Notes: generated from the sequence alone by a model not told the origin. A DNA stretch of 55,441 nucleotides from an uncultured Pseudomonadota bacterium (GCA_903876765.1 CAIRBH010000030.1:1-55441); one strand, 5' to 3'; positions 16,466-36,507 are shown, counted from the first letter of the stretch. Translations and numbers: made by a program.

Positions 16466-17932
16466 TTAATTATTTACCGCTAGCATGTCGACAAATTGAT
16501 GCACTGGCGTGGCCTCTAGCTTAGCTTGGTCTAAACATAGCGCTAAAATATCTGCCTGTTTTTGAGTATCAAAGCGCCGAGCTAGGTTGGTTTTGAATTT
16601 TTTAACTAGCTCTGGTATGCCTTGTGCGCGGCGACGGCGGTGGCCTATTGGGTATTCCACGGCAATGTTGTCTGATTGGCTGCCATCTTTGAAAAATATT
16701 TGTATAGCATTGGCGATGGAGCGTTTTTCAGGGTCGTGATAATCAGCCGTGTAGCTTGCTTTTTCTATACAAGTCATTTTTGCGCGAATTGCGTCAATTC
16801 GTGGGTCTGCAGCTGCCGCGTCTTCATAGTCTTGTGCAGTTAAGTTGCCTTTTAATAAACCAATAGTGGCCATGTATTGTATGCAGTGGTCACGGTCTGC
16901 TGGGTTATCCAGCGGGCCAGTTTTGTCAATAATGCGTATGGCTGATTCGTGCGTGGTAATCACAATTTTTTCAATTTGGCCAATTTGTTCTAGCGTTTGT
17001 AGTTTGCTAGCTACTTGTGCATGAAGCTGAATGGCGCATTCCACCGCAGTTTGCGCGTGGAACTCAGCAGGGAATGAGATTTTAAACAAGACTTGTTCCA
17101 TCACGTATGAGCCATAACTACGTTGAAATTTAAAGGCATTACCCTTAAATAGCACGTCATAAAAGCCCCATGTTTTGGCTGTCAGTGCCGATGGGTAGCC
17201 CATTTCGCCTTGCAGTGTCATCCAAGCTAGTCTGACTGCACGACTGGTGGCATCACCCGCCGCCCACGATTTGCGCGAGCCAGTATTTGGTGAGTGGCGA
17301 TAAGTTCTTAGACTTTGGCCATCAACAAAGGCATTAGACACCGCGTTGATGATGTCTTCTTTATTGCCGCCTAGCAACTTTGTAACGACTGCAGTCGAGG
17401 CGATTTTAACCAAAATCACATGATCTAAACCTACCCGATTAAAACTGTTTTCGAGGGCTAATACACCTTGAATCTCATGCGCTTTAATCATGGCGGTCAA
17501 TACATCTTTGATGGTCAGTGGCGCTTTGCCTGCAGCGATATTTTTACGCGATAAATAATCTGCGCTGGCTAAGATGCCACCTAAATTATCTGAGGGATGG
17601 CCCCATTCAGCCGCTAACCAAGTGTCGTTAAAGTCTAACCAACGTATCATGGCGCCAATATTAAAAGCGGCGAGGATTGGGTCTAGCTGAAAATTAGTCC
17701 CTGGCACTTTTGCACCATTGGGCACTACCGTGCCAGCAATCACTGGCCCCAATAATTTGGTGCAAGCAGGGTAGTCTAATGCTTCAAAGCCACAGCCTAG
17801 CGTGTCCATTAAGCAATTGCGTGCGGTATCAAATGCTTCGGAAGATTGAATTTCGTAATCAGCCACATAATTGGCGATATCGACAATCACTTGGTCTGGG
17901 GCAGGGCGAACGTTTGAAATGTGTGCGGACAT
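16466..17932 (-). CDS. prpD: 2-methylcitrate dehydratase
   Basis: This 488-residue protein is the usual length for PrpD, a cofactor-free MmgE/PrpD-family enzyme. It dehydrates 2-methylcitrate to 2-methyl-cis-aconitate in the cytosol. Family blocks visible include [33 protein letters not shown] near residue 100 and [15 protein letters not shown]. The aconitase that would rehydrate the product is AcnB, encoded at 33928. It is the last gene of the six-gene minus-strand operon and lies 43 bp after prpC. Confidence 0.95.
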
Positions 17933-17975
17933 ATTTAAAAAAACCTCTAATTGTATGAATTGAATTTAGTGATAT

Positions 17976-19136
17976 TTATCTTTGGCTAAGCGGAACATAA
18001 GGTCGGTTATCTGGACCTGTGTATTCGGCATTGGGTCGAATAATTTTGTTGTCTATGCGTTGTTCTATGACATGAGCAACCCAGCCTGTGGTGCGTGAAA
18101 TGACAAATATGGGCGTGAACATGCCAGTGGGAATGCCCATCATGTGATAGCTAGAGGCGCTGTACCAATCTAAATTAGGGAACATTTTTTTCTCGCGCCA
18201 CATCACCGCTTCTATGCGAGATGAAACGTCAAATAGGGTCATATTGCCTGCGTCTGCACATAGTTTGCGGCTGACTTCTTTGATGGATTCATTTCTTGGG
18301 TCAGCGATGGTGTACACCGGGTGACCAAAGCCTATGATAATTTCTTTGTTAGCCATTCTTTGTAAAATATCCGCTTCTGCCTCATCGGCGGTTTGGTAGC
18401 GTTCGATAATTTCCATGGCCGCTTCATTAGCGCCGCCGTGTTTTGCGCCACGTAATGCGCCTATCGCCCCAGTGATGCAAGAATACATGTCAGATAATGT
18501 GCCAGCAATAACCCGTCCAGCAAAGGTGGAGGCGTTAAACTCGTGTTCTGCATAAAGTACCAGTGAGGTATTCATTGCTTGAATATGCAATGGGCTAGGC
18601 GCTTTGCCATGCAATACGTGTAAAAAGTGCGCAGCAATACTGTCATCATCTGTCACCACATCCACACGTTTGCCGCTGTGGCTAAAGTGGTACCAATACA
18701 GCAAAATAGAGCCAAAGCATGAAATTAAGCGATCGCCCAAATCTTGCGCGGCTGCCGTATTGCGGTTGGCAACTTCTGGCTCTAAAGTGCCTAGCATGGC
18801 GCAACCTGTGCGCATCACATCCATTGGGTGAGTGTTTTTTGGTATTTGTTCTAGAACGGTTTTAAGAGCGGCCGGTAAATCGCGCAGTGTTTTTAGTTTT
18901 GCATGATAGGTTGCTAATTGTGTTTTATTGGGCAGTTCGCCATGTATCAGCAAGTAAGCGACTTCTTCAAATGTAGCATGTTTGGCCAGCTCGGTAATAT
19001 CGTAGCCACGATAGTGCAAATCGTTGCCGGTATGTCCCACCGTACAAATTGAGGTAGAACCAGCGGAAACGCCAGCCAGCGCCACGCCTTTTTTCTTTTT
19101 TGGCGCTTCTTCAAGGTTTTGCGCAGGTGAATTCAT
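17976..19136 (-). CDS. prpC: 2-methylcitrate synthase
   Basis: This 386-residue citrate-synthase-family enzyme condenses propionyl-CoA with oxaloacetate. The short length and the N-terminal [20 protein letters not shown]...LHYRGYDI are typical of PrpC rather than GltA. Catalytic blocks are visible: [18 protein letters not shown] with the catalytic His, and the late Asp region [26 protein letters not shown]. No gltA is present in the window, so PrpC could also supply some citrate synthase activity. It starts 2 bp after the prpB stop. Confidence 0.95.
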
Positions 19137-19138
19137 GA

Positions 19139-20023
19139 CTACTTTTCTCCTTTAAATAATTCATCCAGCTTTTGTTCGAAAGCGTGGTAGCCCAAGTTTT
19201 CATAGAGCTCAGCACGGGTTTGCATTAAACCAATCACATTTTTTTGAGTGCCATCTTTACGCATGGCTTGATACACGGTAAGCGCCGCTTGATTCATGGC
19301 GCGGAACGCAGAGAGCGGGTACAGCACCATGCTGACATCTGCCCCAGCCAATTCATCCACAGTAAATAATGGCGTGCTGCCGAACTCGGTAATATTGGCC
19401 AGTACGGGCACTTTCACTGCGGCAGCAAATTGTTTGTACATAGTCAGTTCTGTCATGGCTTCAGGAAATATCATGTCAGCTCCTGCTTCTACGCAGGCAC
19501 AAGCTCTATCCATGGCTGATTGCAGACCTTCTACGGCCAATGCGTCAGTACGCGCCATCACCACAAAGTCGGCATAAGGTTTGGCGTCAACTGCGGCTTT
19601 CACCCGGTCAACCATCTCCGCTAAGCTGACAATCGATTTGTTAGGCCGATGACCGCAGCGCTTAGCGCTGACTTGGTCCTCAATATGAATGGCCGCCGCA
19701 CCTGCTTTAGCCACACTTTTTACGCTGCGGGCGATGTTGAATGCGCCACCCCAGCCTGTATCAATATCGACAAGTAATGGCGTATCGACCGCGTCGGTAA
19801 TACGTCTGACATCAATCAACACGTCTTCTAAACTAGAAATGCCTAAATCTGGCAAGCCTAGTGAGCCAGCTGCCACTCCGCCGCCAGATAAATAGAGCGC
19901 TTTAAAGCCAGTTTGTGTGGCGAGCATGGCATGATAGGCATTGATTGCACCGATAATTTGTAGTGGTTTTTCGGCTTTAAGTGCCGCGCGAAAACGTGCG
20001 CCAGCGGTAGCTCTTTGTGTCAT
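19139..20023 (-). CDS. prpB: 2-methylisocitrate lyase
   Basis: This 294-residue isocitrate-lyase-superfamily enzyme cleaves 2-methylisocitrate to pyruvate and succinate. The diagnostic KRCGH motif with the catalytic Cys is visible near residue 122, and metal-binding DIDTGWGG and IEDQ precede it. It lies 28 bp after the Mcl-like lyase gene and is immediately followed by prpC. Confidence 0.95.
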
Positions 20024-20051: not shown

Positions 20052-21053
20052 TTAGCTAAAAAATGCCTGCATGGCATCGGCTTGTATGACCACTTTGGTC
20101 AATTTGGCTTTTTGTAAAATTTCCCAAAAATAGCGGTATGTGGCTCGATCGTGCAGCTCGCCATCATATTGTATGGGCCCCCAGTCGGCTTTTTGGGCGG
20201 CTAGTAGAATATTCGCGCCATCTTGCACCTCATCAAAATTCGGTTTCATGGCATTGACTATCGCTTCAATTTGCGTGGGATAAATGCTCCACATGCGTAA
20301 AAAGCCAAATTCATTGCGCGCGCGTGAGGCGTCGGCATAGGTGGTTTCTACATTTTTAAGGTCCAGCGTCACGTTATGTGCAGGCACTACGCCATTGGCC
20401 AGTGCGGCGGCGACTAACTCCGCCTTGGCGCGTGCTAATAATCTATGCTCAAATTGCCCAGGGCTGCGCATGGCCGAGGCAGGAATAGCGCCGTGATGGC
20501 CACTGACAAAATCCATTAAGCCAAAATCTAATACTTGTAGCCAAGGTAGTGTGGCGATTTCATGCACGGCTTTTAATGCGCCATGCGTTTCTATTAGGAT
20601 GTGTATTGGGATTTCACGCGTGATGCCATGAAAGGCCGCGACCTTTTGAATGTAAGCAATCATCTCTTGGGCTTGGGCGTAACTGGTACATTTGGGGATA
20701 GTGATGTAACTTAAAACTTGACCAGCACCGCCGACTAAAATATCCACATCAAGCTTCCAAGCAGGGTGGGTGTAATCGTGAATGCGTGCACCTGCCATTT
20801 GATGCTTGTTCTCAGCGCTTGTGAGTAGACGTACTATCATGGCGGCATGGTCGCGTTCTTGGCCAGCTTGCGCGCCATCTTCACAATCACAAGTAATATC
20901 AAATACTGGCCCTAGCGTGTCTTGCATGGCCAGTGCCTTAAGAATTAATTTTTCACTTCCAGCAAAATGCTCACAAGATGGGATGATAGGAAAAGACTTT
21001 TCTCCGCCAAATAAGGCTAGGTTAGGGTGAACCAATTGTTGTGTTGTCGCCAT
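20052..21053 (-). CDS. HpcH/CitE-superfamily CoA-ester lyase, Mcl-like (malyl-/beta-methylmalyl-CoA lyase candidate)
   Basis: This 333-residue protein has the metal and substrate motifs of the superfamily: CDCEDGA near residue 55, ARIHD, ILIETHGAL and LDFGLMDFVSG. The length and the C-terminal DGELHDRATYRYF block recall the Chloroflexus malyl-CoA/beta-methylmalyl-CoA/citramalyl-CoA lyase more than E. coli CitE. The most likely reaction is (2R,3S)-beta-methylmalyl-CoA to glyoxylate plus propionyl-CoA, which suits its neighbours: mesaconyl-CoA hydratase upstream and the methylcitrate enzymes downstream. Substrate choice among C4/C5 CoA esters cannot be read from sequence. Confidence 0.75.
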   Translation of the reverse strand: MATTQQLVHPNLALFGGEKSFPIIPSCEHFAGSEKLILKALAMQDTLGPVFDITCDCEDGAQAGQERDHAAMIVRLLTSAENKHQMAGARIHDYTHPAWKLDVDILVGGAGQVLSYITIPKCTSYAQAQEMIAYIQKVAAFHGITREIPIHILIETHGALKAVHEIATLPWLQVLDFGLMDFVSGHHGAIPASAMRSPGQFEHRLLARAKAELVAAALANGVVPAHNVTLDLKNVETTYADASRARNEFGFLRMWSIYPTQIEAIVNAMKPNFDEVQDGANILLAAQKADWGPIQYDGELHDRATYRYFWEILQKAKLTKVVIQADAMQAFFS

Positions 21054-21074: not shown

Positions 21075-22166
21075 TTAAAATGGTTTGCGTGGCATAAGCA
21101 CGGTGTAATCTAGGTCTAGCACCACGTTGGGGTGATAGGATTTATTTTCGCCATAATTGACATGGGTGCTAGAGAGCGATGTGGCTGGTATATTTTTGAT
21201 ACCCACCATGCGCAGTCTGACGGCTGCAACGTCAACCCGATTGGGAATTAGCCATTTATCTAGCACTTCTGACCAAGTAAAAATAGTGTCATCGCCAAAA
21301 GTTGGGTTGCAGTGCGTGCCAGCATTAATAGCTGCTATGGTCAGGGCATTTTCTAGCCCATCGTGAGACAGTGCGCGACACAGCGAAATAATGTGGCCGC
21401 CATACATGAGTCGCCGCCCAAACGCCGTTTGCTTCATCATCACATCATCAAAATGTAGGCGTGCATTGTTTTGATAGAGTTTGGTGGCTAAGGTGTGGTC
21501 GCTGTCGTTAATCGTCATGCCTGCTGGATGATTAATGCGCTCGCCTATGGTGTAGTCGTCCCACAAGTATTGCCCGCCAGTATTAGCGGTGTTAAATTTT
21601 CTGGCATCTAAAAAGCTAGGTACGGCCAATTCGGTATTGGGCACAAAGCCTGATAGCTTGGGGATGACGGTTTCTGTGCTAGGTGCGTTGATGTTGTTTT
21701 TATGTACCATGACCCAGCGCACCCAAGACAGCACGGGCTGTTGCAACTGGTTAGTTGATACAGAGCGCACATAAGCGACACCAGATTTGCCGTTAGAATT
21801 TTGTTTAAGACCGATCACGGTTGAGCTGGTGCTCAGTGTGTCACCTATATAAACCGGGTGCAAAAATCGCACTTCAGCATAGCCTAAGTTAGCCACAGCG
21901 TTGACTGAGATGTCAGGCACGGTTTTACCAAAGGCAATATGAAAAGCAAGCAAATCGTCTACTGGCCTGGCGTTATAACCTAAAGATTGGGCGACAGTAT
22001 CAGCCGAGTGCAGCACTTGTCTGGCACCCGTTAGTGCGATGTATAAAGCTACTTCGCCTTCGCCTATGGTGCGTGGCGTGGCGTGATGTATCACTTGATT
22101 GAGGGCAAAATCCTCAAAAAAATTGCCGCTACTGATTTTGTTAGTAGTATTCACGTTGCTAGGCAT
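21075..22166 (-). CDS. mch: Mesaconyl-CoA hydratase (beta-methylmalyl-CoA dehydratase)
   Basis: This 363-residue protein has tandem hot-dog MaoC-like domains. N-terminal blocks FFEDFALNQVIHHATPRTIGEGEVALYIAL, DDLLAFHIAFGKTVPDISVNAVANLGYAEVRFLHPVY and IGLKQNSNGKSGV match what I recall of proteobacterial Mch of the ethylmalonyl-CoA pathway. The second domain holds the hydratase-like NARLHFDD. It interconverts mesaconyl-CoA and beta-methylmalyl-CoA. It overlaps the CitE-like gene upstream by 8 bp. Ethylmalonyl-CoA genes ccr, ecm and mcd are not in the window, so the source of mesaconyl-CoA is open. Confidence 0.85.
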   Translation of the reverse strand: MPSNVNTTNKISSGNFFEDFALNQVIHHATPRTIGEGEVALYIALTGARQVLHSADTVAQSLGYNARPVDDLLAFHIAFGKTVPDISVNAVANLGYAEVRFLHPVYIGDTLSTSSTVIGLKQNSNGKSGVAYVRSVSTNQLQQPVLSWVRWVMVHKNNINAPSTETVIPKLSGFVPNTELAVPSFLDARKFNTANTGGQYLWDDYTIGERINHPAGMTINDSDHTLATKLYQNNARLHFDDVMMKQTAFGRRLMYGGHIISLCRALSHDGLENALTIAAINAGTHCNPTFGDDTIFTWSEVLDKWLIPNRVDVAAVRLRMVGIKNIPATSLSSTHVNYGENKSYHPNVVLDLDYTVLMPRKPF

Positions 22167-23040
22167 GGCTGGCTTCCAAAGTTGTAATCATATCGTTGAG
22201 TTTTAATAAGCGCTCAGCGGCTCTGACGTGATGGCGCTCTACTAGTTTGTCATTGACGACGACGGTGCCTTTACCCATTTTATTGGCGGCTTTTAATGCG
22301 ACAATAATTTCACGTGCATGGGTCACTTCACTGGCTTGTGGGCGATAGGCATCATTGCTGTAGGCTAGTTGCGCAGGGTGTACCAGTGATTTGCCATCAA
22401 AGCCCATGTCGCGCCCTAGTCGGCAAGCGTATTCAAAAGAGTGCATATTTTTGAAGTCACTGGTGATGCCGTCAACGACCGCATGACCATAAGCACGTGC
22501 CGCTAAAATCACCAGCGATAGTGAGGTAAGTAGTGCTGAGCGTTCATGTGTCACTCTGGCATGTAATTGTGAGTTTAAGTCTGAAGTGGCCATGACCATA
22601 CATACAATACGGTCAGACACGCTGGCAATTTCCTTGGCATTTAACACGGCAATCGGGCTTTCTATCATCACCATAATAGGCAAATGACTGCCACCAGCAG
22701 CATCTAATAATGACAGGGCGATTAGCACATCTTCTTTAGATTCAATATTGGGGAACAGCACGGCGTCAATTTTTGTCTTGGCAATGGCTTTAATGTCGTC
22801 TTGGCCCCATTGTGAGATTAAATCGTTAACTCGCACCACGACTTCGCGTGAGCCATAGCCACCTTCGGTCACGGCACGTACTACGTTATCACGCGATTCT
22901 TCTTTACACTCAACTAAGACTGGATCACCTAAATCAAGTATCACTGAGTCGGCGTGCAAGGTTCTGGCGCGGTCGAGGTAGTGAGTGTTGCAGCCCGGCA
23001 CGTAAAGCATAGAGCGGCGTGGGCGATAATATAGCGTCAT
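22159..23040 (-). CDS. CitE-like CoA-ester lyase/thioesterase homologue with altered active-site motif
   Basis: This 293-residue protein is of classic CitE length. R (VVRVND), E (MIESPIAV) and D (ATSDLN) positions of the superfamily are kept, and FDGKSLVHPAQL is present. The usual DLED(S/A)V motif, however, reads LDLGDPV, so the conserved Glu is Gly. Homologues in the ethylmalonyl-CoA pathway include (3S)-malyl-CoA thioesterase, so this copy may hydrolyse rather than cleave its substrate. First gene of the operon, behind a strong promoter. It could instead have low or changed activity. Confidence 0.8.
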   Translation of the reverse strand: MTLYYRPRRSMLYVPGCNTHYLDRARTLHADSVILDLGDPVLVECKEESRDNVVRAVTEGGYGSREVVVRVNDLISQWGQDDIKAIAKTKIDAVLFPNIESKEDVLIALSLLDAAGGSHLPIMVMIESPIAVLNAKEIASVSDRIVCMVMATSDLNSQLHARVTHERSALLTSLSLVILAARAYGHAVVDGITSDFKNMHSFEYACRLGRDMGFDGKSLVHPAQLAYSNDAYRPQASEVTHAREIIVALKAANKMGKGTVVVNDKLVERHHVRAAERLLKLNDMITTLEASHA

Positions 23041-23257: not shown

Positions 23258-23995
23258 ATGATAGACAAACACTACAATTCACCAAGCTATAAGCCGCTTT
23301 ATGATCAGATTAAAGTATTGCTCACGCAAAGTTTGATTGGTGGTGAGTGGCGTCCAGGCGATATGATTCCAAGCGAAATTGAATTAGCTGGCCGTTATAA
23401 AGTCAGTCAAGGCACAGTCAGAAAAGCCATTGATGCCTTAGCGACAGAAAATATTTTGATACGCCGACAAGGTAAGGGCACATTTGTTGCCACCCATAGT
23501 GCCGAAGGCATGAAGTTGCGGTTTTTACGCTTAACTTCAGTCGATGGGCAAAAAGAACTGCTTAAAAATGAGTTTATTTCATGCACTAAAGGCAAGGCAG
23601 ATGCGCGTATGGGCCAGGTTCTTGATTTAAAAGCGGGCGCTTCCACCATAGAAATAAAACGTTTACTGACTTTTTCAGGTAGGCCACTTATTTTTGACCA
23701 CATCATTGTGCCAGCCGCCCCGTTTAAAGGCTTGAACGGCCAGCGTGTGGAAGATAATAACGGTTCTATGTATAGCATGTATGAATCAGAATTTGGTGTA
23801 CGCATGATACGTGCAGAAGAGCGTTTAAAAGCAGTGGCCGCAAAAGGTGAAGTGGCCAAGGACTTGGGTCTTAAAGAAAATGAGCCAATTTTAAGTATAG
23901 AGCGCGTGTCGTTTACTTATGGCGATAAGCCCATGGAATGGCGCTTAGGATTATGTGTGACAGATAACCATCATTATATGAACGAGCTTGAGTAG
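23258..23995 (+). CDS. GntR-family regulator, HutC subfamily (wHTH plus UTRA)
   Basis: This 245-residue protein has a winged-helix domain (about 10-80) carrying GDMIPSEIELAGRYKVSQGTVRKAIDALATENILIRRQGKGTFV, the GntR signature. Residues 90-245 form a UTRA ligand-binding domain. The likely effector is an intermediate of the pathway, such as 2-methylcitrate, methylisocitrate or propionyl-CoA, by analogy with other propionate regulators. It is transcribed away from the prp operon and upstream of maeB-sdh. The inverted repeat at 23124-23150 is the best operator candidate. Confidence 0.9.
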   Translation: MIDKHYNSPSYKPLYDQIKVLLTQSLIGGEWRPGDMIPSEIELAGRYKVSQGTVRKAIDALATENILIRRQGKGTFVATHSAEGMKLRFLRLTSVDGQKELLKNEFISCTKGKADARMGQVLDLKAGASTIEIKRLLTFSGRPLIFDHIIVPAAPFKGLNGQRVEDNNGSMYSMYESEFGVRMIRAEERLKAVAAKGEVAKDLGLKENEPILSIERVSFTYGDKPMEWRLGLCVTDNHHYMNELE

Positions 23996-24067: not shown

Positions 24068-25276
24068 ATGGATGATTTGAAAAAGCGTGCTCTTGATTAC
24101 CATGAGTTTCCTAAACCAGGCAAACTCTCGGTCGAATCGTCTAAACCATGTGCTACGCAAGATGACTTGTCTCTAGCCTATACGCCTGGAGTTGCGGTGC
24201 CGGTGCGAGAAATTAATCGTGACCCAGCCAACGCCTATAAATACACCAATAAAGGCAATTTAGTGGCGGTAATTACCGATGGTACTGCGGTGTTGGGTTT
24301 AGGCAATATGGGCCCGCTAGCCAGCAAGCCCGTGATGGAAGGTAAGGCCGTTTTATTCAAACATTTTGCTGGTATAGATGTATTCGATATAGAGATTAAT
24401 GCGCCTAGCATAGAAGCTTTTATTGAAACGGTGGTCAATATCGCGCCAACTTTTGGCGGTATTAATTTAGAAGACATTGCCGCGCCACATTGTTTTAGGA
24501 TAGAAAATGAATTACGCGCACGATTAGATATTCCAGTGTTTCATGATGATCAGCATGGCACAGCGGTAATCGTGGCAGCGGCGTTATCTAATGCTTTAGA
24601 GCTGCAAGGTAAAACTTTAGCTAGCGCAAAAATTGTATTTTTAGGCGCTGGCGCAGCAGGTTGCTCTTGTGCCCGTTTACTAAAACTGATGGGTGCGACG
24701 AATATCACCATGGTGGATAAATCAGGCATATTAGATAGCGCGCGCAGCGATTTGCATGACAATAATCGCCATTTGGCGGTGCCACCTAGCAGCGCTAAAA
24801 CCTTAGCCGATGTGATGCCTGAGGCCGATGTATTTATTGGCGTTTCTGCAGCCAATGCCTTATCGCCAGATTTATTAAAACTGATGGCGGCAAAGCCCGT
24901 GGTATTTGCTTTGGCTAATCCTGACCCTGAAATATTGCCCAGTTTAGCCCATGCGGTGCGTGATGATATTTTAATGGCAACTGGTAGGTCAGATTTTCCT
25001 AATCAAGTGAATAATGCACTTTGTTTTCCTTACCTGTTCCGCGGAGCGCTGGATGCCAAGGCTAAGCAAATCACTGATGAAATGCAAATCGCCGCCGCAC
25101 ATGCCTTAGCTGCGCTAGCCCGTGAACCCGTGCCGGCCGATGTGCTTGCAGCTTATAACTTAACCAGTTTGAGTTTTGGCAAAGATTATATTATCCCCAA
25201 ACCCTTCGATAAACGCTTGTTGGCCTGCGTATCTGGTGCTGTGGCAGATGCGGCAAGATTACAACAAGCGCAATAA
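24068..25276 (+). CDS. maeB: NAD(P)-dependent malic enzyme
   Basis: This 402-residue malic enzyme decarboxylates malate to pyruvate. N-terminal YTPGVAVPVREI and GTAVLGLGNMGPLASKPVMEGKAVLFK are typical of the bacterial MaeB type. The catalytic DDQHGTAV and the nucleotide-binding GAGAAGCSCARLL follow. It lacks the phosphotransacetylase-like C-terminal domain found in long MaeB (about 760 residues). The AGAAGG site precedes the ATG. It provides an exit from malate produced by Sdh and fumarase. The next gene, sdhC, starts 2 bp after its stop. Confidence 0.92.
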   Translation: MDDLKKRALDYHEFPKPGKLSVESSKPCATQDDLSLAYTPGVAVPVREINRDPANAYKYTNKGNLVAVITDGTAVLGLGNMGPLASKPVMEGKAVLFKHFAGIDVFDIEINAPSIEAFIETVVNIAPTFGGINLEDIAAPHCFRIENELRARLDIPVFHDDQHGTAVIVAAALSNALELQGKTLASAKIVFLGAGAAGCSCARLLKLMGATNITMVDKSGILDSARSDLHDNNRHLAVPPSSAKTLADVMPEADVFIGVSAANALSPDLLKLMAAKPVVFALANPDPEILPSLAHAVRDDILMATGRSDFPNQVNNALCFPYLFRGALDAKAKQITDEMQIAAAHALAALAREPVPADVLAAYNLTSLSFGKDYIIPKPFDKRLLACVSGAVADAARLQQAQ

Positions 25277-25278
25277 AA

Positions 25279-25713
25279 GTGTCATTGACTATGCTAAATG
25301 ATTCATCACAAAACCAGTCAAAAGTGGGCCTAACCAAAGCGCAAAAACCACGGCCTAAAAATCTTAATTTATTGACCATACGCTTGCCGATTAATGCGCT
25401 GGTGTCTATTTTGCATAGGGCAACAGGCTGTATATTATTTCTCATCCTGCCTGTCATTTTGCTGCTTTTGCAATGGTCACTTAGTTCGGCGGCAAATTTT
25501 GAAACAGTCGTTGCCATTTTGCATTCGCCGCTCATCAAGCTGATGTTACTTGGTTTAGGCTGGGCTTTTTCCCATCATTTTTTTGCTGGCATACGTCATT
25601 TAGCTATGGATGTGCATTGGATGACAAGCCTGATGAAAGCCCGCTATACCAGTAAAGTGGTGTTAGTGCTGGGGGCACTGGCAACTTTATTATTGGCGAT
25701 TAAATTATGGTGA
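25279..25713 (+). CDS. sdhC: Succinate dehydrogenase cytochrome b556 subunit
   Basis: This is a 144-residue membrane anchor subunit with three transmembrane helices. ISILHRATG-type motif (VSILHRATGC) near residue 45 and SHHFFAGIRHLAMD near residue 95, with heme-ligand and quinone-site histidines, are typical. The GTG start at 25279 lies 2 bp after maeB. ATG 25291 is an alternative, and the N-terminal 35 residues are polar either way. It forms complex II with SdhD, SdhA and SdhB. Confidence 0.92.
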   Translation: MSLTMLNDSSQNQSKVGLTKAQKPRPKNLNLLTIRLPINALVSILHRATGCILFLILPVILLLLQWSLSSAANFETVVAILHSPLIKLMLLGLGWAFSHHFFAGIRHLAMDVHWMTSLMKARYTSKVVLVLGALATLLLAIKLW

Positions 25714-27859: not shown

Positions 27860-27885
27860 TTGATCAGCATTGAAGAGATTAAAAG

Positions 27886-28626: not shown

Positions 28627-28928
28627 CTATGAATACGCACACACAGAGCAATATGACGCCAGAACAAGTGCGACGTCTAAGTTGGCGCTGTCGGCGTGGG
28701 TTGTTAGAGCTAGATATAGTCTTGCAAAGATTTTCTGAACATCATGTCGCGAACTTGAACCCACAAGAGCTACTGGCATTTGATGGCTTGTTAGATTTGC
28801 CAGACAATGAATTCTTGGATTTGGTGACTTTACGGGTCCATGTGAGCAATGTGGCAGCCTTAAGAGACAAAAAACTAGATGCGGTTGCCATGCAGCGTGT
28901 GCTGACTAAATTAAGTGGTCGTGAATAA
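28623..28928 (+). CDS. sdhE: FAD assembly factor SdhE
   Basis: This 101-residue protein carries the family motif RRGLLELD, preceded by RLSWRC. SdhE promotes covalent flavinylation of SdhA. It overlaps sdhB by ATGA, as expected for coupled expression. In many proteobacteria gltA follows here. In this window a CitE-superfamily lyase follows instead. Confidence 0.9.
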   Translation: MTMNTHTQSNMTPEQVRRLSWRCRRGLLELDIVLQRFSEHHVANLNPQELLAFDGLLDLPDNEFLDLVTLRVHVSNVAALRDKKLDAVAMQRVLTKLSGRE

Positions 28929-28988: not shown

Positions 28989-30152
28989 ATGAATAACGTA
29001 CACCCGATTACCGACGAAGCCAGCATGAACCATCTAAACAAAATAAAATGCTATAGCAATAGCGCTATGTTGGGTGAAAGCTGGCCTGGCATACAACTGT
29101 ATTACCCGCCAGTTAAATATTCACCTGCCTTAGGCATTTATGAAGATTTAACGCAGGCTGCAGCACGTATGCGTAAACATGCACACAACACCAATGCCCA
29201 TACCTTGATTTTTGACTTGGAAGATGGCTGCCGCCAAAAAGAAATGAGTCGAGATTTGTTGCGTCAAGAGCTGCCTTTGCTGCGTAAAGACAATCAGCAG
29301 GTCACCATAGCCATTCGCGCCAACTCATTTCGCACTGATGAATATGAACTAGATATGCAGTTAGTCAGTGATATGTCAGATTATATTGATGTGGTCATGC
29401 TGGCTAAGGCTGGCGAGGCGTATGGCGCGGCCGAAGTGCGCGATTTATCTAGCTTTTTGCTGGAAATTAACCCGCACATCACCATACAACCCATCATTGA
29501 ACACCCTAAATCACTTAAGATCGCTCCTGAGTTATTGCAATACAGCACGGTCAAGCATGTTGTGTTTGGTATTCATGACTTTTCTAAAGCGATGGGCATA
29601 CATATAACCCCAGAACACTGGATAGAAGAGTTGCAGTTTTATATGAATCAGCTCATGTTTGAAGCCCGTATTGCCGGTAAAGGCGTGATAGGCGGGGTAG
29701 AAACCTTGATAGGCGCCAATGTCATGCCAGAAAAGTTTGTCGAGCCGCATGATGTACGCCGCTGGCTAGATTTGCACGGAGATAATGAGTCCAGAGTGGT
29801 TTATAAACACGCCTGCCAAGAGGCTGCCATGGGCTTGACTGGCAAGCAAGTCATACATCCTGGCCATATTCACTTATGTAAAACGGCTTATACGCCATCC
29901 CCTACCGAAGTGAACCAAAAAGTCCGCATACTGAAAGCAGCCATAGAGGCTGATGCGCTGCACGGCGGTGCGATTAAGTTTGAGGGTGAAATGTTAGATC
30001 CGCCTATGTTTGGTAAGGCGCTACAGACCTTGCTGCGTGCCCATGCCTTAAGGGCCATCACCCCAGAGGACAAAAACTTTGCCTTGCAAGTGCTGGAGTT
30101 ATTGCCAGCGCAAGTGATACGACAAAACTGGCCATACGGCGCGATTTTATAG
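28989..30152 (+). CDS. HpcH/CitE-superfamily CoA-ester lyase (third paralogue; citramalyl-/malyl-CoA lyase candidate)
   Basis: This 387-residue protein is longer than CitE. The full active-site set is visible: FDLEDGCR near residue 77, IAIRANS, IIEHPKS, VVFGIHDFSKAMG, GLTGKQVIHPGHI and the C-terminal FEGEMLDPPM. It has the Glu that the 22159 paralogue lacks. The adjacent CoA ligase and class I fumarase make (S)-citramalyl-CoA (to acetyl-CoA plus pyruvate) or malyl-CoA attractive substrates, but this is inference. It lies 60 bp after sdhE in the same direction. Confidence 0.75.
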   Translation: MNNVHPITDEASMNHLNKIKCYSNSAMLGESWPGIQLYYPPVKYSPALGIYEDLTQAAARMRKHAHNTNAHTLIFDLEDGCRQKEMSRDLLRQELPLLRKDNQQVTIAIRANSFRTDEYELDMQLVSDMSDYIDVVMLAKAGEAYGAAEVRDLSSFLLEINPHITIQPIIEHPKSLKIAPELLQYSTVKHVVFGIHDFSKAMGIHITPEHWIEELQFYMNQLMFEARIAGKGVIGGVETLIGANVMPEKFVEPHDVRRWLDLHGDNESRVVYKHACQEAAMGLTGKQVIHPGHIHLCKTAYTPSPTEVNQKVRILKAAIEADALHGGAIKFEGEMLDPPMFGKALQTLLRAHALRAITPEDKNFALQVLELLPAQVIRQNWPYGAIL

Positions 30153-30213: not shown

Positions 30214-31848
30214 ATGATGCAAAAATTTGAAAAATTTCCAGACTGGCCATGGAATATAGCAAAACACTTCAATATTGGTGCTGCCTGTACAGATAAACAT
30301 TTAAACACGCCAGCGGCGCAAGCCATCGCCATGATAGTCGAAGATGATGTGCAAGGCACTTCTCAAATCAGCTTTGCGCAGTTAGCCAAACGTACCGACC
30401 AATTTGCTCAATTACTGAGAAATCTGCAACTGAGCCTAGGGGATAGGGTGTTGATTCGCTTGCCTAATTGTTTGGATTACCCGACAGCTTTTTTGGGCAC
30501 CATGAAGCGCGGCGCCATTGCTGTGCCAACATCGACCTTGCTGACCGCCGAAGAAGTGGCTTATTTGGCGCGTGATTCTAACGCGGCGGTATTGGTCACA
30601 GATAAAGCAGCCTGGCCCTCGCTACAAGACCATCTGTCAGAACTGCCCAATCTAAAGCATGTATTGTTGTCTGGCAGCGGCGATGTTGTTAAACATGCCA
30701 GTTTAAATGTGTGTGATTTAGCCACCGAACTTGCAGCAATTATGACTTGTTCAGGTACTGAGCAAACGGCGGCAGACGATCCTGCCTATTTAGTTTACAC
30801 CTCAGGCACGACTGGCTACCCTAAAGGGGTGTTACATGCCCACCGCGCGTTGATAGGTCGTGAGCCTGCGGCAAAATATTGGTTTAATTTTTCTGATCAT
30901 TTACAAGACCGCATTATGCATTCTGGTAAATTTAACTGGACTTATGTACTAGGCACGGGTTTGATGGACCCCTTGTATTTAGGTAAAACCGTGATTGTGC
31001 ATGAAGGTAAAAATGATGCTGATTTATGGACACGTTTGATCGCCAAACACGAGGCAACTATTTTTGTGGGCGTGCCTACTATTTATCGGCAAATTATTCA
31101 AAAATCAGCAGCAAAGCAGGCGGATGTGCCCAGCTTGCGCCATTGTATGAGTGCTGGTGAGCATTTGTCTGATGAAGTTTTGCAGCAATGGCGTGCACGT
31201 TTTGGCCAAGATATTTATGAAGCTGTCGGCATGAGTGAGTTTTCTTACTATTTAAGTCAAAGCATATTCCGCCCGATTAGAGCAGGTTCAGCAGGTTTTC
31301 CACAACCTGGCCATGCCATTAAACTGCTTAATCCCGATACTTTAGAAGAAGTAGCAGCTGGCGAAGAAGGCATGATATGCGTGCCAGATAATGATCCTGG
31401 GCTATTTTTGCGCTACTGGAATTTAGCTGAAGAAACCGCAAAATATAAACACGATGGCTGGTTTTTTACTGGGGATTATGCCCGTTACGATGCCGATGGC
31501 TATATTTGGTTCTTAGGTCGTAAAGACGACATTATTAAAAGTTTTGGCTATCGGGTATCGCCGTATGAAATCGAGCGGGTTTATAAGTCGCATCCAGCGG
31601 TTGCCGATTGCGCGGCAGTCGGTGAAGAGCTTGAAAAAGATAAGTTATTGGTAGTGACTTACGTGATATTGCAGCCCAATCATGAGGTGAGTGCTGATGA
31701 GTTGCTGGCTTTTGGCAAGCAACAATTAGCCGCTTATAAAACGCCAAAAACGGTTTATTTAACTAAAGAGTTTCCACGTACTAAAAATGGCAAAATTTTA
31801 CGAAAAGACATCAACAATACAATTGCTTACGCCAAATCTTCAAGATGA
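30214..31848 (+). CDS. AMP-forming acyl-CoA synthetase (substrate unknown)
   Basis: This 544-residue ANL-superfamily ligase has the P-loop YTSGTTGYPKGVLHAH, the A5-type region YEAVGMSEFSYY, the hinge GWFFTGDYARYDADGY.. and the catalytic Lys region PRTKNGKILRKDI. It looks like the benzoate/medium-chain-type branch rather than acetyl-CoA synthetase. Given its neighbours, propionate, mesaconate or citramalate are candidate substrates. It could feed propionyl-CoA to PrpC. ATG 30214 is followed directly by another ATG. Confidence 0.85.
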   Translation: MMQKFEKFPDWPWNIAKHFNIGAACTDKHLNTPAAQAIAMIVEDDVQGTSQISFAQLAKRTDQFAQLLRNLQLSLGDRVLIRLPNCLDYPTAFLGTMKRGAIAVPTSTLLTAEEVAYLARDSNAAVLVTDKAAWPSLQDHLSELPNLKHVLLSGSGDVVKHASLNVCDLATELAAIMTCSGTEQTAADDPAYLVYTSGTTGYPKGVLHAHRALIGREPAAKYWFNFSDHLQDRIMHSGKFNWTYVLGTGLMDPLYLGKTVIVHEGKNDADLWTRLIAKHEATIFVGVPTIYRQIIQKSAAKQADVPSLRHCMSAGEHLSDEVLQQWRARFGQDIYEAVGMSEFSYYLSQSIFRPIRAGSAGFPQPGHAIKLLNPDTLEEVAAGEEGMICVPDNDPGLFLRYWNLAEETAKYKHDGWFFTGDYARYDADGYIWFLGRKDDIIKSFGYRVSPYEIERVYKSHPAVADCAAVGEELEKDKLLVVTYVILQPNHEVSADELLAFGKQQLAAYKTPKTVYLTKEFPRTKNGKILRKDINNTIAYAKSSR

Positions 31849-31880: not shown

Positions 31881-33410
31881 ATGACAACCATAGACCAAGA
31901 AGACTTTATTCAAAGCATTGCCGATGCGCTGCAATATATTTCTTATTACCATCCGCTAGACTATATACAAGCCCTAGGTCGGGCCTATGAGGCGGAGCAA
32001 TCGCCTGCGGCTAAAGACGCCATTGCACAAATTTTAAGCAATTCACGTATGTGTGCTGAAGGCAAGCGGCCGCTTTGCCAAGATACTGGCATTGTTGTTG
32101 CTTTTATTAAAGTTGGCATGCAAGTAAAGTGGGATGCAGCGTTGAATGTTGAGCAAATGGTCAATGAAGGTGTGCGCCGTGCTTACCAATTGCCTGAGAA
32201 TAAATTACGCGCTTCTATGGTCAGCGACCCCGCTGGAAAGCGCGCCAATACTAAAGATAACACGCCAGCAGTGGTACATGTGTCATTGGTCAAGGGCGAT
32301 AAAGTAGAGGTCAGCATCGCTGCCAAAGGTGGCGGTTCTGAGAATAAAGCCAAGCTCGCCATGCTTAACCCGAATGACAGCATCGCTGATTGGATATTGA
32401 GCGTAGTGCCCCAAATGGGTGCAGGTTGGTGCCCACCTGGTATGTTGGGTATAGGAATAGGCGGCAGTGCAGAAAAAGCAGTATTGCTGGCCAAAGAATC
32501 ACTGATGGCGCCTATTGATATACATGAGCTTAAGGCAAAAGGTGCCAGTAACAGCATAGAAGCCTTACGCTTAGAGATTTTTGAAAAAGTGAATAATTTG
32601 GGCATAGGCGCGCAAGGTTTAGGCGGGTTGGCAACGGTGTTGGATGTGAAAATTTTAGATTATCCTACCCATGCGGCTTCTTTGCCGGTGGCGATTATTC
32701 CTAATTGTGCGGCAACGCGGCACGTGCATTTTGAGTTAGATGGTACAGGGGTGGCGGTTTTAGAGGCGCCCGACTTAAATGCTTGGCCTGATGTGCATTG
32801 GGCGCCCAGTGCAGCGTCGTTAAGGGTGAATTTAGATACTATTACGCAAGCTGACATACAAACTTGGCAACCAGGCCAAACTTTGTTGTTAAGTGGAAAA
32901 TTATTAACAGGCCGGGATGCTGCGCATAAACGCATACAAACCATGTTGGCGGCAGGAGAAAAACTGCCAGTTGATTTTAATAATCGATTTATTTATTACG
33001 TAGGACCAGTCGATGCGGTGCGCGATGAAGCGGTAGGCCCCGCAGGCCCAACTACAGCAACGCGTATGGATGGTTTTACAGAGATGATGTTAGGTCAAAC
33101 AGGTTTATTAGGCATGGTCGGCAAAGCCGAGCGCGGAGCTGAAACCATAGCGGCAATCGCAAAATATCGGTCGGTTTATTTAACGGCAGTGGGCGGTGCT
33201 GCTTATTTGGTGAGTAAGGCGATTAAAAAAGCAGAAGTGTTAGCCTTTGCCGACTTGGGTATGGAGGCCATTTATGAGTTTACCGTGCAAGATATGCCAG
33301 TGACGGTGGCGGTGGATAGTCAGGGCGTTTCCGTACACAGTATAGGCCCAGCGCTCTGGCAAGAAAAAATTGCCCAACAACACCTAATTGAAATGCGCAC
33401 AACTAGTTAA
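31881..33410 (+). CDS. Class I fumarate hydratase (Fe-S; possible mesaconase)
   Basis: This 509-residue protein is the usual size for the iron-sulfur class I enzymes, with CQDTG near residue 66, PNCAATRHVHF and the C-terminal tartrate/fumarase beta domain (AVGPAGPTTATRMDGF). It hydrates fumarate to malate in the cytosol. Class I fumarases of other betaproteobacteria also hydrate mesaconate to (S)-citramalate, which would suit this cluster. It lies between the acyl-CoA ligase gene and the EF-hand gene, 32 bp and 2 bp away. Confidence 0.93.
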   Translation: MTTIDQEDFIQSIADALQYISYYHPLDYIQALGRAYEAEQSPAAKDAIAQILSNSRMCAEGKRPLCQDTGIVVAFIKVGMQVKWDAALNVEQMVNEGVRRAYQLPENKLRASMVSDPAGKRANTKDNTPAVVHVSLVKGDKVEVSIAAKGGGSENKAKLAMLNPNDSIADWILSVVPQMGAGWCPPGMLGIGIGGSAEKAVLLAKESLMAPIDIHELKAKGASNSIEALRLEIFEKVNNLGIGAQGLGGLATVLDVKILDYPTHAASLPVAIIPNCAATRHVHFELDGTGVAVLEAPDLNAWPDVHWAPSAASLRVNLDTITQADIQTWQPGQTLLLSGKLLTGRDAAHKRIQTMLAAGEKLPVDFNNRFIYYVGPVDAVRDEAVGPAGPTTATRMDGFTEMMLGQTGLLGMVGKAERGAETIAAIAKYRSVYLTAVGGAAYLVSKAIKKAEVLAFADLGMEAIYEFTVQDMPVTVAVDSQGVSVHSIGPALWQEKIAQQHLIEMRTTS

Positions 33411-33412: not shown

Positions 33413-33736
33413 ATGCTAGTGCAGCCCATACTAGACCGTTTGCCGCTTAGCATTGTTTTGCTGATGGGATTTTTTGTAGTGAATATAGCGAGTGCCGCAG
33501 ATATTTTAGCTTATTTGGCGGATAAAGATGGGCGATATAACGGCCCTAGCGTAGAAGACAATGTGGCGGCCATGGACACCGACAAGAATGGTTTTGCCGA
33601 TGTTTATGAAGTGCGGGCTTTTTTAGAATTAAAGCATGGCAAAGGCTATGAAAAAGAACTCATGGATAAAATGGAAGCTAGCGCAAAGGGTAAAAGTTGT
33701 AGTACGCCATTTTCAAAAGAGTTATACCTCAATTAA
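33413..33736 (+). CDS. Exported single EF-hand protein
   Basis: This 107-residue protein has a signal peptide (hydrophobic 12-27, likely cleaved after ASA). One EF-hand loop is visible, DTDKNGFADVYE, with ligands at positions 1, 3, 5, 9 and 12. A Cys near the C-terminus (GKSCSTPF) is single. It starts 2 bp after the fumarase stop, so it shares the transcript despite being periplasmic, an unexpected partner for central-metabolism genes. It probably binds Ca2+. Its function is unknown. Confidence 0.7.
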   Translation: MLVQPILDRLPLSIVLLMGFFVVNIASAADILAYLADKDGRYNGPSVEDNVAAMDTDKNGFADVYEVRAFLELKHGKGYEKELMDKMEASAKGKSCSTPFSKELYLN

Positions 33737-33826: not shown

Positions 33827-33836
33827 AAAAATAGGT

Positions 33837-33854
33837 AAAACAGCTAAGCTGTTT
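33837..33854 (+). terminator. Short hairpin upstream of acnB
   Basis: AAAACAGCT pairs with AGCTGTTTT over one central base, giving a short stem ending in a U run. It may terminate the upstream operon or attenuate acnB. The stem is short, so the assignment is tentative. Confidence 0.4.
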
Positions 33855-33927
33855 TTGAACTGCCAGTATTGAGCAGCTAGTATAATGATGAAGAATTTTT
33901 TAACCCACTTTAAAGATGCAAAATACC

Positions 33928-36507
33928 ATGTTAAAAGCCTACGCCGCCCACGTTGAAGAACGTGCTAGCCTGCAACTACCGCCCTTACCACTTAATGCGG
34001 AACAAGTCGCGCAAGTGGTAGAGTTACTTAAAAATCCACCTAGTGGACAAGGCGAAACTTTGCTTGATTTAATCGCTAACCGCACACCAGCAGGGGTGGA
34101 TCAGGCGGCCTATGTAAAAGCCGCATTCTTGTCAGATATTGCGATTAGTAAAGCCGTGTCACCCATCATCAGCCCAGCGCAAGCGGTTGATTTGCTGGCC
34201 ACCATGTTAGGTGGCTATAACGTTCAGGCTTTAGTTAAGTTGCTAGATACGCCTATGGCAGCAGCGGCTGTTAAAGCTTTATCTAGCACTATTTTAATGT
34301 TTGACGCGTTTCATGATGTACATGAAAAAATGCAAGCGGGTAATAGCTATGCTCAACAACTCATTACTTCTTGGGCGAATGCCGAATGGTTTACCAATGC
34401 CCCAGTATTGGCTGAAGAAATTAAAATAGTGGTGTTTAAAGTCGATGGCGAAACTAACACCGATGATCTAAGTCCAGCGCAAGATGCTTGGAGTCGCCCA
34501 GACATCCCTCTACATGCCAAGGCCATGCTGATCAACAAAATGCCAGAAGGCCTAACGCTTATTGATACCTTGAAGCAAAAAGGCTTGCCGCTCGCTTATG
34601 TGGGTGATGTGGTCGGCACTGGTTCTTCACGTAAATCAGCGATTAATTCTTTGCAGTGGTTTATGGGCAATGACATTCCTAATATTCCCAACAAGCGCAC
34701 TGGTGGCGTGATTCTGGGGACTAAAATTGCCCCTATTTTCTTTAATACTGCTGAAGATTCTGGTGCATTGCCTATCCAATGTGACGTTTCAAAAATGCGT
34801 ACTGGCGACATCATCACCTTGCAGCCTTATGCAGGAAAAGTACTCAATGAAGCAGGCGAAGTCATCTCTAGTTTTACTTTAGCGCCATTAACGCTACCAG
34901 ATGAGGTGCGAGCAGGCGGCCGTATTGCCTTAATTATTGGTCGTGGCTTAACCAGCAAAGCGCGCGCCGCCTTGGGCTTACCGCCCACAGAATTATTCAT
35001 CACCGCTAGCACGCCAAAAGACAGCGGCAAAGGCTACACCCTGGCACAAAAAATGGTCGGTAGAGCTTGCGGCTTGCCTGAAGGGCAGGGTGTTAGACCA
35101 GGTTCATATTGTGAGCCCAAAGCCACTACAGTAGGCTCGCAAGACACGACTGGCGGTATGACCCGAGATGAGCTCAAAGAGTTGGCCTGTTTGGGTTTTA
35201 GCGCAGATTTAGTCATGCAAAGTTTTTGCCATACGGCAGCTTACCCAAAACCTGTAGACATTAAATTGCAGCATAGCCTGCCAGAATTCATGAGTAGTCG
35301 CGGTGGTGTGAGTTTACGTCCTGGTGATGGCGTGATTCATTCTTGGTTAAATCGCATGGTATTGCCCGACACAGTCGGCACTGGCGGCGACTCGCATACA
35401 CGCTTTCCTATCGGCATTTCATTTCCAGCAGGGTCGGGTTTAGTGGCATTTGCCGCCGCCATGGGCGCTATGCCGTTAGATATGCCAGAATCAGTCTTAG
35501 TGCGTTTTAAAGGCACCATGCAGCCTGGTATTACCTTACGCGACTTGGTCAATGCTATTCCTTATGCAGCCATACAAAAAGGTGAATTGACGGTGGGTAA
35601 GCAGGGCAAGAAAAATGTCTTTAATGGCCGTATTTTAGAAATTGAAGGCTTGCCAGATTTAAAAGTAGAGCAAGCGTTTGAATTTGCCGATGCCTCTGCC
35701 GAGCGCTCGGCAAATGGCTGCACGGTAAGGTTAAACAAAGCGCCTGTCATAGAGTTTTTAAGCTCAAACATCGTGCTGATGCAAAACATGATAGACCAAG
35801 GCTATGAAGATGCTCGCTCGCTACAACGCCGAATTGCCAGTATGCAGGCATGGCTAGCCAAGCCAGAACTATTAGAACCTGATGCTAATGCCGAATACGC
35901 TTACACGCTAGAAATAGATTTGAACGAAATTAAAGAGCCATTAGTGGCTTGCCCTAACGACCCCGATGACATCAAGCCTTTGTCAGCCGTGGTAGGCGAT
36001 AAGATTGACGAGGTATTCATAGGCAGTTGTATGACCAATATTGGTCATTACCGTGCTGCGGCAAAAGTGCTAGAAGGCTCGGGTAATATTCCTACCCGAT
36101 TATGGATAGCGCCACCTACCCGTATGGATGAAGCGCAATTAAGGGATGAGGGGGTTTATTCAGTATTTGGCGTGGCTGGCGCACGTACAGAAATACCAGG
36201 TTGCTCTTTATGTATGGGCAACCAAGCCCGTGTCGCCGATAAAGCAACGGTGTTCTCAACCAGTACGCGTAATTTTGATAATCGCATGGGTATGGATGCT
36301 AGGGTTTATTTAGGTTCGGCTGAATTGGCCGCAGTCTGTGCAAAACTAGGCCGTATGCCGAGTCATGCCGAGTACCTAGACACTGTGGGCAATAAATTAC
36401 AAAATAGTGCGGAAATTTATAAATATCTTAATTTTGATCAAATGCCAGATTATGCTGCTAGCCTGGCTAAGTCCAAGAAAATCATCCCGATTGCTGAAGT
36501 GATTTAA
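33928..36507 (+). CDS. acnB: Aconitate hydratase B / 2-methylisocitrate dehydratase
   Basis: This 859-residue protein has the AcnB domain order. The N-terminal HEAT-like part begins [16 protein letters not shown], which aligns with known AcnB starts, so I prefer ATG 33928 over ATG 33916 four codons upstream. Swivel domain [12 protein letters not shown] and Fe-S cysteines in GSCMTNIGH and [10 protein letters not shown] are visible. In the methylcitrate cycle it hydrates 2-methyl-cis-aconitate formed by PrpD. It also serves the citric acid cycle. Confidence 0.95.

Follow-up and report, generated by a model that had tools for sequence, protein, structure and literature searches.

Introduction

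Routes that connect acetyl-coenzyme A (acetyl-CoA) and pyruvate with propionyl-CoA and glyoxylate have been described or proposed in several bacteria, and here we compare them with a divergent gene cluster at positions 16466-36507 of a 55,441-nucleotide stretch of DNA (the window) from an uncultured Pseudomonadota bacterium (GCA_903876765.1, CAIRBH010000030.1:1-55441), in which three CitE-fold proteins (Cyl1, Cyl2 and Cyl3), a MaoC-type hydratase (Mch), an AMP-forming acyl-CoA ligase (Lig) and a class I fumarase are encoded together with a methylcitrate set. In Arcobacter butzleri, the region ab1917-ab1921 encodes a hydratase, a class I fumarase and two CitE proteins, has a third CitE domain joined to a CoA synthetase and comes with methylcitrate genes, and the same interconversion was proposed for it in 2007; it differs from the window in the single fused gene, in a malic enzyme encoded elsewhere (ab1083) and in having fumarate reductase instead of succinate dehydrogenase (PMC2147049). 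The citramalate cycle of Rhodospirillum rubrum, which later work has questioned, leads from acetyl-CoA and pyruvate to citramalate, mesaconate, mesaconyl-CoA, methylmalyl-CoA and then glyoxylate and propionyl-CoA, the latter returning to pyruvate (PMC8307300). There propionyl-CoA goes back via succinyl-CoA, whereas here the methylcitrate cycle would close the route.

The 3-hydroxypropionate bicycle of Chloroflexus shares with this locus an Mch-type hydratase, malyl-CoA-lyase-fold proteins and the same end compounds, and it uses an intramolecular CoA transferase. No CoA transferase, and hence none of the mesaconyl-CoA C1-C4 type, was found among the genes of our cluster, the rest of the genome not having been searched for one, and Chloroflexus differs in its single trifunctional lyase (PMC3832036). 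The itaconate/methylsuccinate cluster of Pseudomonas and Cupriavidus likewise combines a MaoC-type hydratase and a CitE-fold lyase with C5 acids, encoding an itaconyl-CoA hydratase, an (S)-citramalyl-CoA lyase, a CoA transferase, an acyl-CoA dehydrogenase and an MmgE protein; as described in PMC12290011, it has one CitE-type gene and no CoA ligase, whereas the window cluster has lig and three CitE genes.

The cluster itself is already known, from Methylotenera, Methylophilus and OM43. For Methylophilaceae, PMC4109929 lists "Methylcitric acid cycle genes (prpCBD, cyl1, maoC, cyl2, gntR, mdh, sdhABCD, cyl3, prpE, fum, can)" and terms these clusters strongly conserved, PMC3728764 reports strong expression under lake conditions and calls the metabolite unknown, and PMC6794327 describes a propionate-oxidising pathway. 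The window has the same gene list and looks like a member of this group, and the statement of an initial annotation of this DNA that no such cluster was known to be described in methylotrophs must therefore be withdrawn. By position, our lig is the prpE of PMC4109929; in these three papers and in PMC5120137 the ligase bears that name, with the substrate of the cluster left open or taken as propionate, and the literature on the Methylophilaceae cluster, as far as it was searched, assigns no reactions or substrates to cyl1-3 or maoC. What is new here is that a six-gene core, cyl1-mch-cyl2 / gntR-cyl3-lig, recurs outside the Methylophilaceae. We also put forward, tentatively and as the foremost of several readings, that the cluster would be a C5-dicarboxylate bridge between acetyl-CoA plus pyruvate and propionyl-CoA plus glyoxylate, run mostly as a citramalate cycle together with the methylcitrate cycle, a pathway idea that was already published for A. 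butzleri.

Results

The six-gene core was surveyed with an alignment of five Cyl3 proteins, which yielded 209 relatives in named genomes; the best 80 of the 209 were kept, and these loci come mostly from Methylophilaceae, the survey leaning toward close relatives. In 80/80 of them cyl3 and lig share a strand, with lig after cyl3, gntR is found in 75/80, and the full core (cyl1, maoC, cyl2, gntR, cyl3, lig) in 64/80. The 16 loci with an incomplete core comprise 14 that lose the left half at a contig end (five also without gntR, and nine with gntR at most 0.9 kb from the contig end), one (L036) that keeps cyl2 only, and one (L082) with an insertion, beyond which the left half was found in L120. 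Chance is excluded because the same gene order is seen in dozens of named Methylophilaceae contigs, and over the 64 full sets the five enzymes show correlations of 0.80-0.94 between their pairwise distances, shared ancestry not being controlled for.

In eleven loci neither sdh nor fum lies beside the core, though some of these contigs stop shortly after lig. Seven of the eleven are named Sideroxyarcus, Gallionella, Sideroxydans, Gallionellaceae or Nitrosomonadales and have no methylcitrate gene alongside as far as the contigs reach (in 3/7 the contig ends at most 1.4 kb from cyl1); the remaining four, named Methylophaga or gammaproteobacterium, carry prpDCB and malic enzyme. Genomes G014 and G080 have an operon cyl3-lig-cyl2-maoC-cyl1, an order of gene kinds that would match A. 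butzleri if the fused CitE domain there corresponds to Cyl2, the two being likened by gene kinds and not by sequences (PMC2147049). In G022 and G069 fum lies downstream of cyl3-lig with one open reading frame (ORF) between them, and the methylcitrate genes are not nearby. What looked like a cyl3-ligase fusion in G022 was discarded as a reading-frame artefact; the start of its 934-residue ORF is not cyl3.

Further neighbours of the core (acsA, xsc/pta, ppsA, ppsR) were counted only after they had been noticed. In Methylobacillus flagellatus L1B (L120, 11580-17941) the insertion lies between cyl2 and gntR and holds mqo, genes for a protein that matches no family and begins with a signal-like stretch and for a small protein of membrane type, the acetate-CoA ligase gene acsA (962 bits, cut-off 725) and, by eye, a PanD-like gene. 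A Gallionella metagenome-assembled genome (MAG) carries, 3.5-6.4 kb past lig, Xsc (1068 bits, cut-off 676) and a phosphate-acetyltransferase-type protein (424 bits, over one subfamily cut-off of 282; 398 bits, under another's 413), with a choline-dehydrogenase-type gene between these and the core. PpsR-PpsA follow lig in two Methylophaga-named MAGs (L088 and L094), and a partial PpsR is present in L092. A search for cyl3 on plasmids returned 125 records, every one below 60% identity.

Gene content was determined with NCBIfam and Pfam profiles and their cut-offs (25 bits for the HpcH_HpaI/CitE type) in 25 genomes, a hand-picked and non-random set in which 22 carry cyl3 and three (G011, G075 and G029) carry Mch but not cyl3, with a sample of 100 genomes from the window's order as background. 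The gene prpB was over cut-off in 22/22 cyl3 genomes and in 25/25 of all those searched, vs. 51/100 in the order sample, where Mch occurs in 8/100 and cyl3 in 5/100, all five falling within the eight, and where prpB without cyl3 is common (46/95). Two other members of the window's own family in that sample, G025 and G072, have neither prpB nor Mch nor cyl3 at the limits used, and within genus g16 all three are present in G014 and none in G062. In seven core-only genomes (Gallionella-, Sideroxydans- and Nitrosomonadales-type) prpB lies on a different contig from the core; in the two whose neighbours were classified, L117 and L119, this separate prpB stands with prpC, acnD and a PrpE-like ligase (681 and 691 bits, cut-off 827), and in L117 also with prpF.

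Isocitrate lyase was over cut-off in 1/22 cyl3 genomes vs. 3/3 Mch-only genomes, and malate synthase is missing in 15/22 cyl3 genomes. In the window genome (G000; 1.91 Mb, 53 contigs, 90% complete) the isocitrate lyase model matches only prpB, below its cut-off, and malate synthase has no match. Crotonyl-CoA carboxylase/reductase (Ccr) was over cut-off in 0/25 genomes and had no match in the window genome, and the ethylmalonyl-CoA pathway was accordingly rejected as a source of mesaconyl-CoA for these 25. The 2-oxoglutarate dehydrogenase is absent in 11/22 cyl3 genomes, namely the window genome and ten reached via Methylophaga-, gammaproteobacterium- and Methylophilaceae-type loci. Exactly three CitE-type genes are present in 20/22 (four in G022, five in G069), and the three found in the window genome all lie within the cluster. 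A class I fumarase is present in 25/25 genomes, yet its presence is hardly informative, since 82/100 genomes of the order have one too. As judged solely by cross-match to the crotonyl-CoA-reductase model, which has no match in the window genome, no propionyl-CoA-synthase-like ORF was seen at 150 bits or more in the 22 cyl3 genomes; such long ORFs (at least 150 bits) occur only in G075 and G029, two of the three Mch-only genomes. There, at L024 (G075, 8682-19836) and L025 (G029, 3799-11607), a very long ORF with acetate-CoA-ligase, enoyl-CoA-hydratase and crotonyl-CoA-reductase domains, which we take to be the make-up of propionyl-CoA synthase, has an Mch-type hydratase and a lyase of the CitE type near it. 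These are fragments resembling the 3-hydroxypropionate bicycle; both genomes belong to the window's order, and prpB and isocitrate lyase are present in each.

As regards the individual enzymes, the parts named by the initial annotation (MaoC/Mch, three CitE proteins, CoA ligase, class I fumarase and methylcitrate set) are all ORFs at the places given for them and match their family profiles. The three CitE proteins score 45, 138 and 38 bits with the HpcH_HpaI/CitE-type profile. Cyl1 (20052..21053, minus strand; PDB 3qqw 513 bits, 3r4i 363 bits) is a candidate beta-methylmalyl-CoA lyase; Cyl2 (22159..23040, minus; TIGR01588 197 bits, below the cut-off of 443; PDB 5ugr 128 bits) is an altered CitE-fold protein and candidate acyl-CoA thioesterase; and Cyl3 (28989..30152, plus; PF03328 38 bits) is a long, diverged lyase that may act on citramalyl-CoA or malyl-CoA. 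In the numbering of Rhodobacter malyl-CoA lyase, Arg76, Glu141, Asp168, Asp299, Glu44 and Asp45 are kept across the superfamily, and Glu in place of Asp299 is reported only for the malyl-CoA thioesterase group (PMC3832036). All six residues are kept in Cyl1 (68-69/69, one row gapped) and in Cyl3 (84-85/85, one row with X), and Cyl2 has Glu for Asp299 in 69/69 plus one gap. Cyl1 retains the Trp in contact with pyruvate or glyoxylate (69/69); Cyl3 has Gln at this place (85/85), as does CLYBL, which we take to be a human citramalyl-CoA lyase and with which Cyl3 also has the motif GKQVIHP in common. The AlphaFold model of Cyl3 is poor (mean predicted local distance difference test score, pLDDT, 56.6) and that of Cyl2 fair (73.6); Foldseek places both models in the CitE/malyl-CoA-lyase fold, a comparison by which their likely substrates cannot be distinguished.

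Mch (21075..22166, minus; PF19315 "Mesaconyl-CoA hydratase" 44.6 bits, cut-off 26.5, over residues 9-320 of 363; PDB 4e3e 422 bits) matches 8hgn, a solved beta-methylmalyl-CoA dehydratase, at 364 bits, in agreement with the Mch-type hydratase first annotated there and now a candidate mesaconyl-CoA hydratase; the haloarchaeal Mch model NF041625 gives 44 bits, far under its cut-off of 560. Lig (30214..31848, plus; PF00501 252 bits) has a benzoate-CoA ligase as its best PDB match (226 bits). It shares 25-26% identity with the PrpE-like ligases found at L117 and L119, its relatives are 24-28% identical to AcsA/PrpE-type references, and the PrpE model TIGR02316 is absent from the 25 best of its 107 NCBIfam families; in L117 and L119 lig is probably not PrpE, since a separate PrpE-like ligase stands with prpB there. 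The stretches NWTY and SYY of Lig, presumably near the acyl pocket as judged from ligase structures, are invariant in 83/83. The class I fumarase (31881..33410, plus; PF05681 326 bits, PF05683 278 bits), a candidate mesaconase, keeps in 64/64 three Cys residues that we take to be the Fe-S cluster ligands, and the mesaconate hydration ascribed to its relatives is on record for the class I enzymes of E. coli and Burkholderia (PMC4682846).

The cyl1-Mch pair is also met on plasmids. The two genes adjoin on a Cupriavidus oxalaticus plasmid (L106, 7979-15488), and on a Sphingobium plasmid, where they carry the annotations mch and citE_2, they are adjacent again, next to a protein of the alpha-methylacyl-CoA racemase type. 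This supports the two being one functional pair and, in those hosts, working in a catabolic direction. The L106 genes have as neighbours a CoA transferase, an MmgE/PrpD protein, an acyl-CoA dehydrogenase and a transporter protein of the tripartite tricarboxylate kind, and L106 resembles a methylsuccinate-type cluster whose end products would be propionyl-CoA and glyoxylate, not acetyl-CoA and pyruvate. Against a fixed pair, two other plasmids annotate cyl1 without Mch adjacent and a Marinobacter plasmid has Mch with a CoA transferase and no cyl1 (the plasmid gene tables being incomplete), and in L024 and L025 Mch stands beside another CitE type.

Read downward from 23040, the minus strand of the window cluster carries cyl2, maoC (mch), cyl1, prpB, prpC and prpD, and upward from 23258 the plus strand carries gntR, malic enzyme, sdhC/D/A/B/E, cyl3, lig, fumarase, a 107-residue ORF and acnB. 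Every methylcitrate cycle gene is over its NCBIfam cut-off: 2-methylcitrate dehydratase PrpD (16466..17932, minus; TIGR02330 859 bits, cut-off 458), 2-methylcitrate synthase PrpC (17976..19136, minus; NF009006 672 bits, cut-off 550), 2-methylisocitrate lyase PrpB (19139..20023, minus; TIGR02317 422 bits, cut-off 354) and the aconitase/2-methylisocitrate dehydratase AcnB (33916..36507, plus; TIGR00117 1469 bits, cut-off 1287). Not in the list of the initial annotation are the GntR/UTRA-type regulator divergent to cyl2 (23258..23995, plus; Pfam GntR 72 bits, UTRA 96 bits), the malic enzyme (24068..25276, plus; Pfam malic 108 bits, Malic_M 84 bits), the genes sdhC, sdhD, sdhA, sdhB and sdhE (25279..28928, plus; TIGR02970, TIGR02968, TIGR01816 and TIGR00384 over cut-off, PF03937 64 bits) and the small ORF between fum and acnB (33413..33736, plus; 107 residues, 0 families matched). 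The latter has a signal-like start and, by eye, one DTDKNGFADVYEV stretch resembling an EF-hand loop, and is possibly a metal-binding exported protein; it occurs in 49/80 cyl3 loci, only in those with both sdh and fum. The nearest Cyl3 relatives among the best 80 are MAGs named Methylotenera and one named Sulfuritalea, which suggests that the window organism is a member of the Methylophilaceae.

Elsewhere in the window, the minus strand at 3621-10869 encodes two cyclopropane-synthase-type methyltransferases, a DUF1365 protein, a flavoprotein of the amine-oxidase type and a fatty acid desaturase, which together look like a lipid-modification cluster, and an ATP-binding cassette (ABC) exporter (47609-49786) and HlyD (49783-51195) beside a LapD-like GGDEF/EAL protein (51872-53812) look like adhesin secretion under cyclic di-GMP control (47609-53812).

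Discussion

From the gene families, conserved catalytic residues, gene order and co-occurrence observed, we infer each substrate, the direction and the step taken by each CitE protein as follows. Cyl3 would join acetyl-CoA and pyruvate to citramalyl-CoA, and Cyl2 would release free citramalate from it (or malate from malyl-CoA); the class I fumarase would convert citramalate to mesaconate, Lig would activate mesaconate to mesaconyl-CoA, Mch would hydrate this to beta-methylmalyl-CoA, and Cyl1 would cleave the latter to propionyl-CoA and glyoxylate. PrpC, PrpD, AcnB and PrpB, with succinate dehydrogenase and fumarase, would return propionyl-CoA to pyruvate, while glyoxylate and a second acetyl-CoA would give malate via malyl-CoA. 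In net terms, two acetyl-CoA would become malate without isocitrate lyase, and malic enzyme could then yield pyruvate; with a malate:quinone oxidoreductase assumed, two acetyl-CoA and ATP would give malate, two reduced quinones, AMP and pyrophosphate (PPi). Were malic enzyme coupled with a pyruvate dehydrogenase, the cycle would instead burn acetyl-CoA. It is possible, though we hold it for doubtful, that this amounts to a complete citramalate-methylcitrate cycle within one cluster, in bacteria that lack isocitrate lyase and, in the case of the methylotrophs, 2-oxoglutarate dehydrogenase as well.

That all 22 cyl3 genomes checked have prpB, that 21/22 lack isocitrate lyase and that none has Ccr over cut-off fit a propionyl-CoA that is made rather than consumed. 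The initial annotation had the same parts consume it: propionyl-CoA and glyoxylate would pass through mesaconate and citramalate as free acids to acetyl-CoA and pyruvate, citramalate being activated by Lig and citramalyl-CoA cleaved by Cyl3, in a free-acid counterpart to the second part of the 3-hydroxypropionate bicycle. This scheme also has a candidate for each step, it is the direction that the authors preferred for A. butzleri (PMC2147049), and the invariable cyl3-lig pair, with fum downstream in G022 and G069, reads naturally as activation and cleavage of citramalate. We consider it rather improbable, because it and the methylcitrate cycle would both consume propionyl-CoA, and a rival consumer, PrpB, is encoded in every cyl3 genome checked, which speaks for the acetyl-CoA plus pyruvate direction and also for the breakdown of an outside C5 acid; moreover, the cyl3 genomes gave no sign of propionyl-CoA synthase or Ccr within the limits stated above. 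We also know of no precedent for a CitE-fold mesaconyl-CoA thioesterase. The direction is probably the reverse of that first annotated; the observation behind the initial annotation is confirmed and its interpretation partly supported.

Catabolism of a C5 dicarboxylic acid from outside the cell, for example mesaconate, citramalate or beta-methylmalate, is a less probable explanation than the citramalate cycle, though one to be taken seriously: Lig would activate the acid, Mch and Cyl1 would give propionyl-CoA and glyoxylate, Cyl3 and Cyl2 would turn glyoxylate and acetyl-CoA into malate, and the methylcitrate cycle would take the propionyl-CoA. It accounts for all three CitE genes and for the prpB link without a mesaconase, and the C. 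oxalaticus plasmid setting of cyl1 and Mch looks like a C5-acid catabolic cluster. Expression points the same way, in situ (PMC3728764) and in OM43 strain NB0046, where the adjacent citrate-lyase-type and CoA ligase genes NB46_00665 and NB46_00666, probably cyl3 and lig to judge by name and place, stand at 101/104 on nutrient-deplete methanol, at 269/341 under replete conditions, at 420/487 with vitamins and at 1,055/1,045 on dissolved organic matter (table units), on which prpBCD are up as well (PMC5120137). On the other hand, no transporter was recognised among the identified neighbours of the core, where most unnamed ORFs are without identification, and this favours both the citramalate cycle and its reverse over C5-acid breakdown. 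Gallionellaceae and methylotrophs are, to our knowledge, not C5-dicarboxylate users. The published view, in which a methylcitrate cycle serves propionate use, Lig is PrpE and accessory or side roles fall to the CitE and MaoC proteins, has the prpDCB-acnB-sdh-fum set on its side, but we regard it as very unlikely given the low identity of Lig to AcsA/PrpE-type ligases and the absence of a PrpE model from its 25 best families, the prpB-prpC-acnD operon apart from the core in the cyl3-bearing G104 and G106 that includes a PrpE-like ligase (681 and 691 bits, under its cut-off of 827), and the seven loci with the core and no methylcitrate genes alongside.

For the citramalate cycle we count the constant cyl3-lig pair, the core complete in 64/80 loci, the three CitE genes in 20/22 cyl3 genomes, malate synthase missing in 15/22, the Glu of Cyl2 at the Asp299 place and the rise of the probable OM43 cyl3 and lig on dissolved organic matter. 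It is further favoured by some extra neighbours with roles in acetyl-CoA formation or gluconeogenesis (AcsA, Mqo, Xsc, the phosphate acetyltransferase-type protein and PpsR-PpsA), with PpsA fitting all three directions because all yield pyruvate. Several points weigh against the cycle. Such telling neighbours are scarce among the 80 loci (acsA 1, xsc/pta 1, ppsA 2, ppsR 3), the prpB link rests on few independent lineages, and the lack of isocitrate lyase may reflect life style only, many cyl3 carriers being known as autotrophs or methylotrophs. The fumarase lies outside the core; it stands in the window cluster, as the initial annotation had it, and is missing beside the core in the eleven loci described above. 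Cyl2, first annotated as an altered CitE protein acting as a thioesterase, has the Glu at the Asp299 place that this would call for and has lost the superfamily-wide Glu44 (Gly in 68/70, Glu in 2/70), and with Asp45 as Asp in 63, Ala in 4 and Asn in 3 of 70 it departs from the Glu44/Asp45 pattern of the thioesterase group. Ala167 of the propionyl pocket, reported as conserved in both lyase groups, is Met in Cyl1 (69/69), His in Cyl3 (85/85) and Ser in Cyl2 (69/70), and the change to Met argues, though not decisively, against Cyl1 taking propionyl-CoA. Condensing acetyl-CoA with pyruvate to give citramalyl-CoA is unfavourable and needs a pull (PMC3832036), A. butzleri with its similar cluster did not grow on acetate, propionate or both (PMC2147049), and in OM43 acnB does not follow the methylcitrate genes and sdh rises less (PMC5120137).

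Conclusions

The reaction-by-reaction proposal, the minimal six-gene core and the organisms named here make the purpose of this cluster testable, and the cluster may let cells use acetate-level carbon. If the citramalate direction holds, the cycle proposed in 1997 (cited in PMC2147049) would gain genes, and with them a long-disputed pathway would have a gene-level basis whose core is common to methylotrophs and iron-oxidiser-type bacteria; bacteria regarded as strict one-carbon or iron users would, in that case, gain a route to exploit acetyl-CoA.

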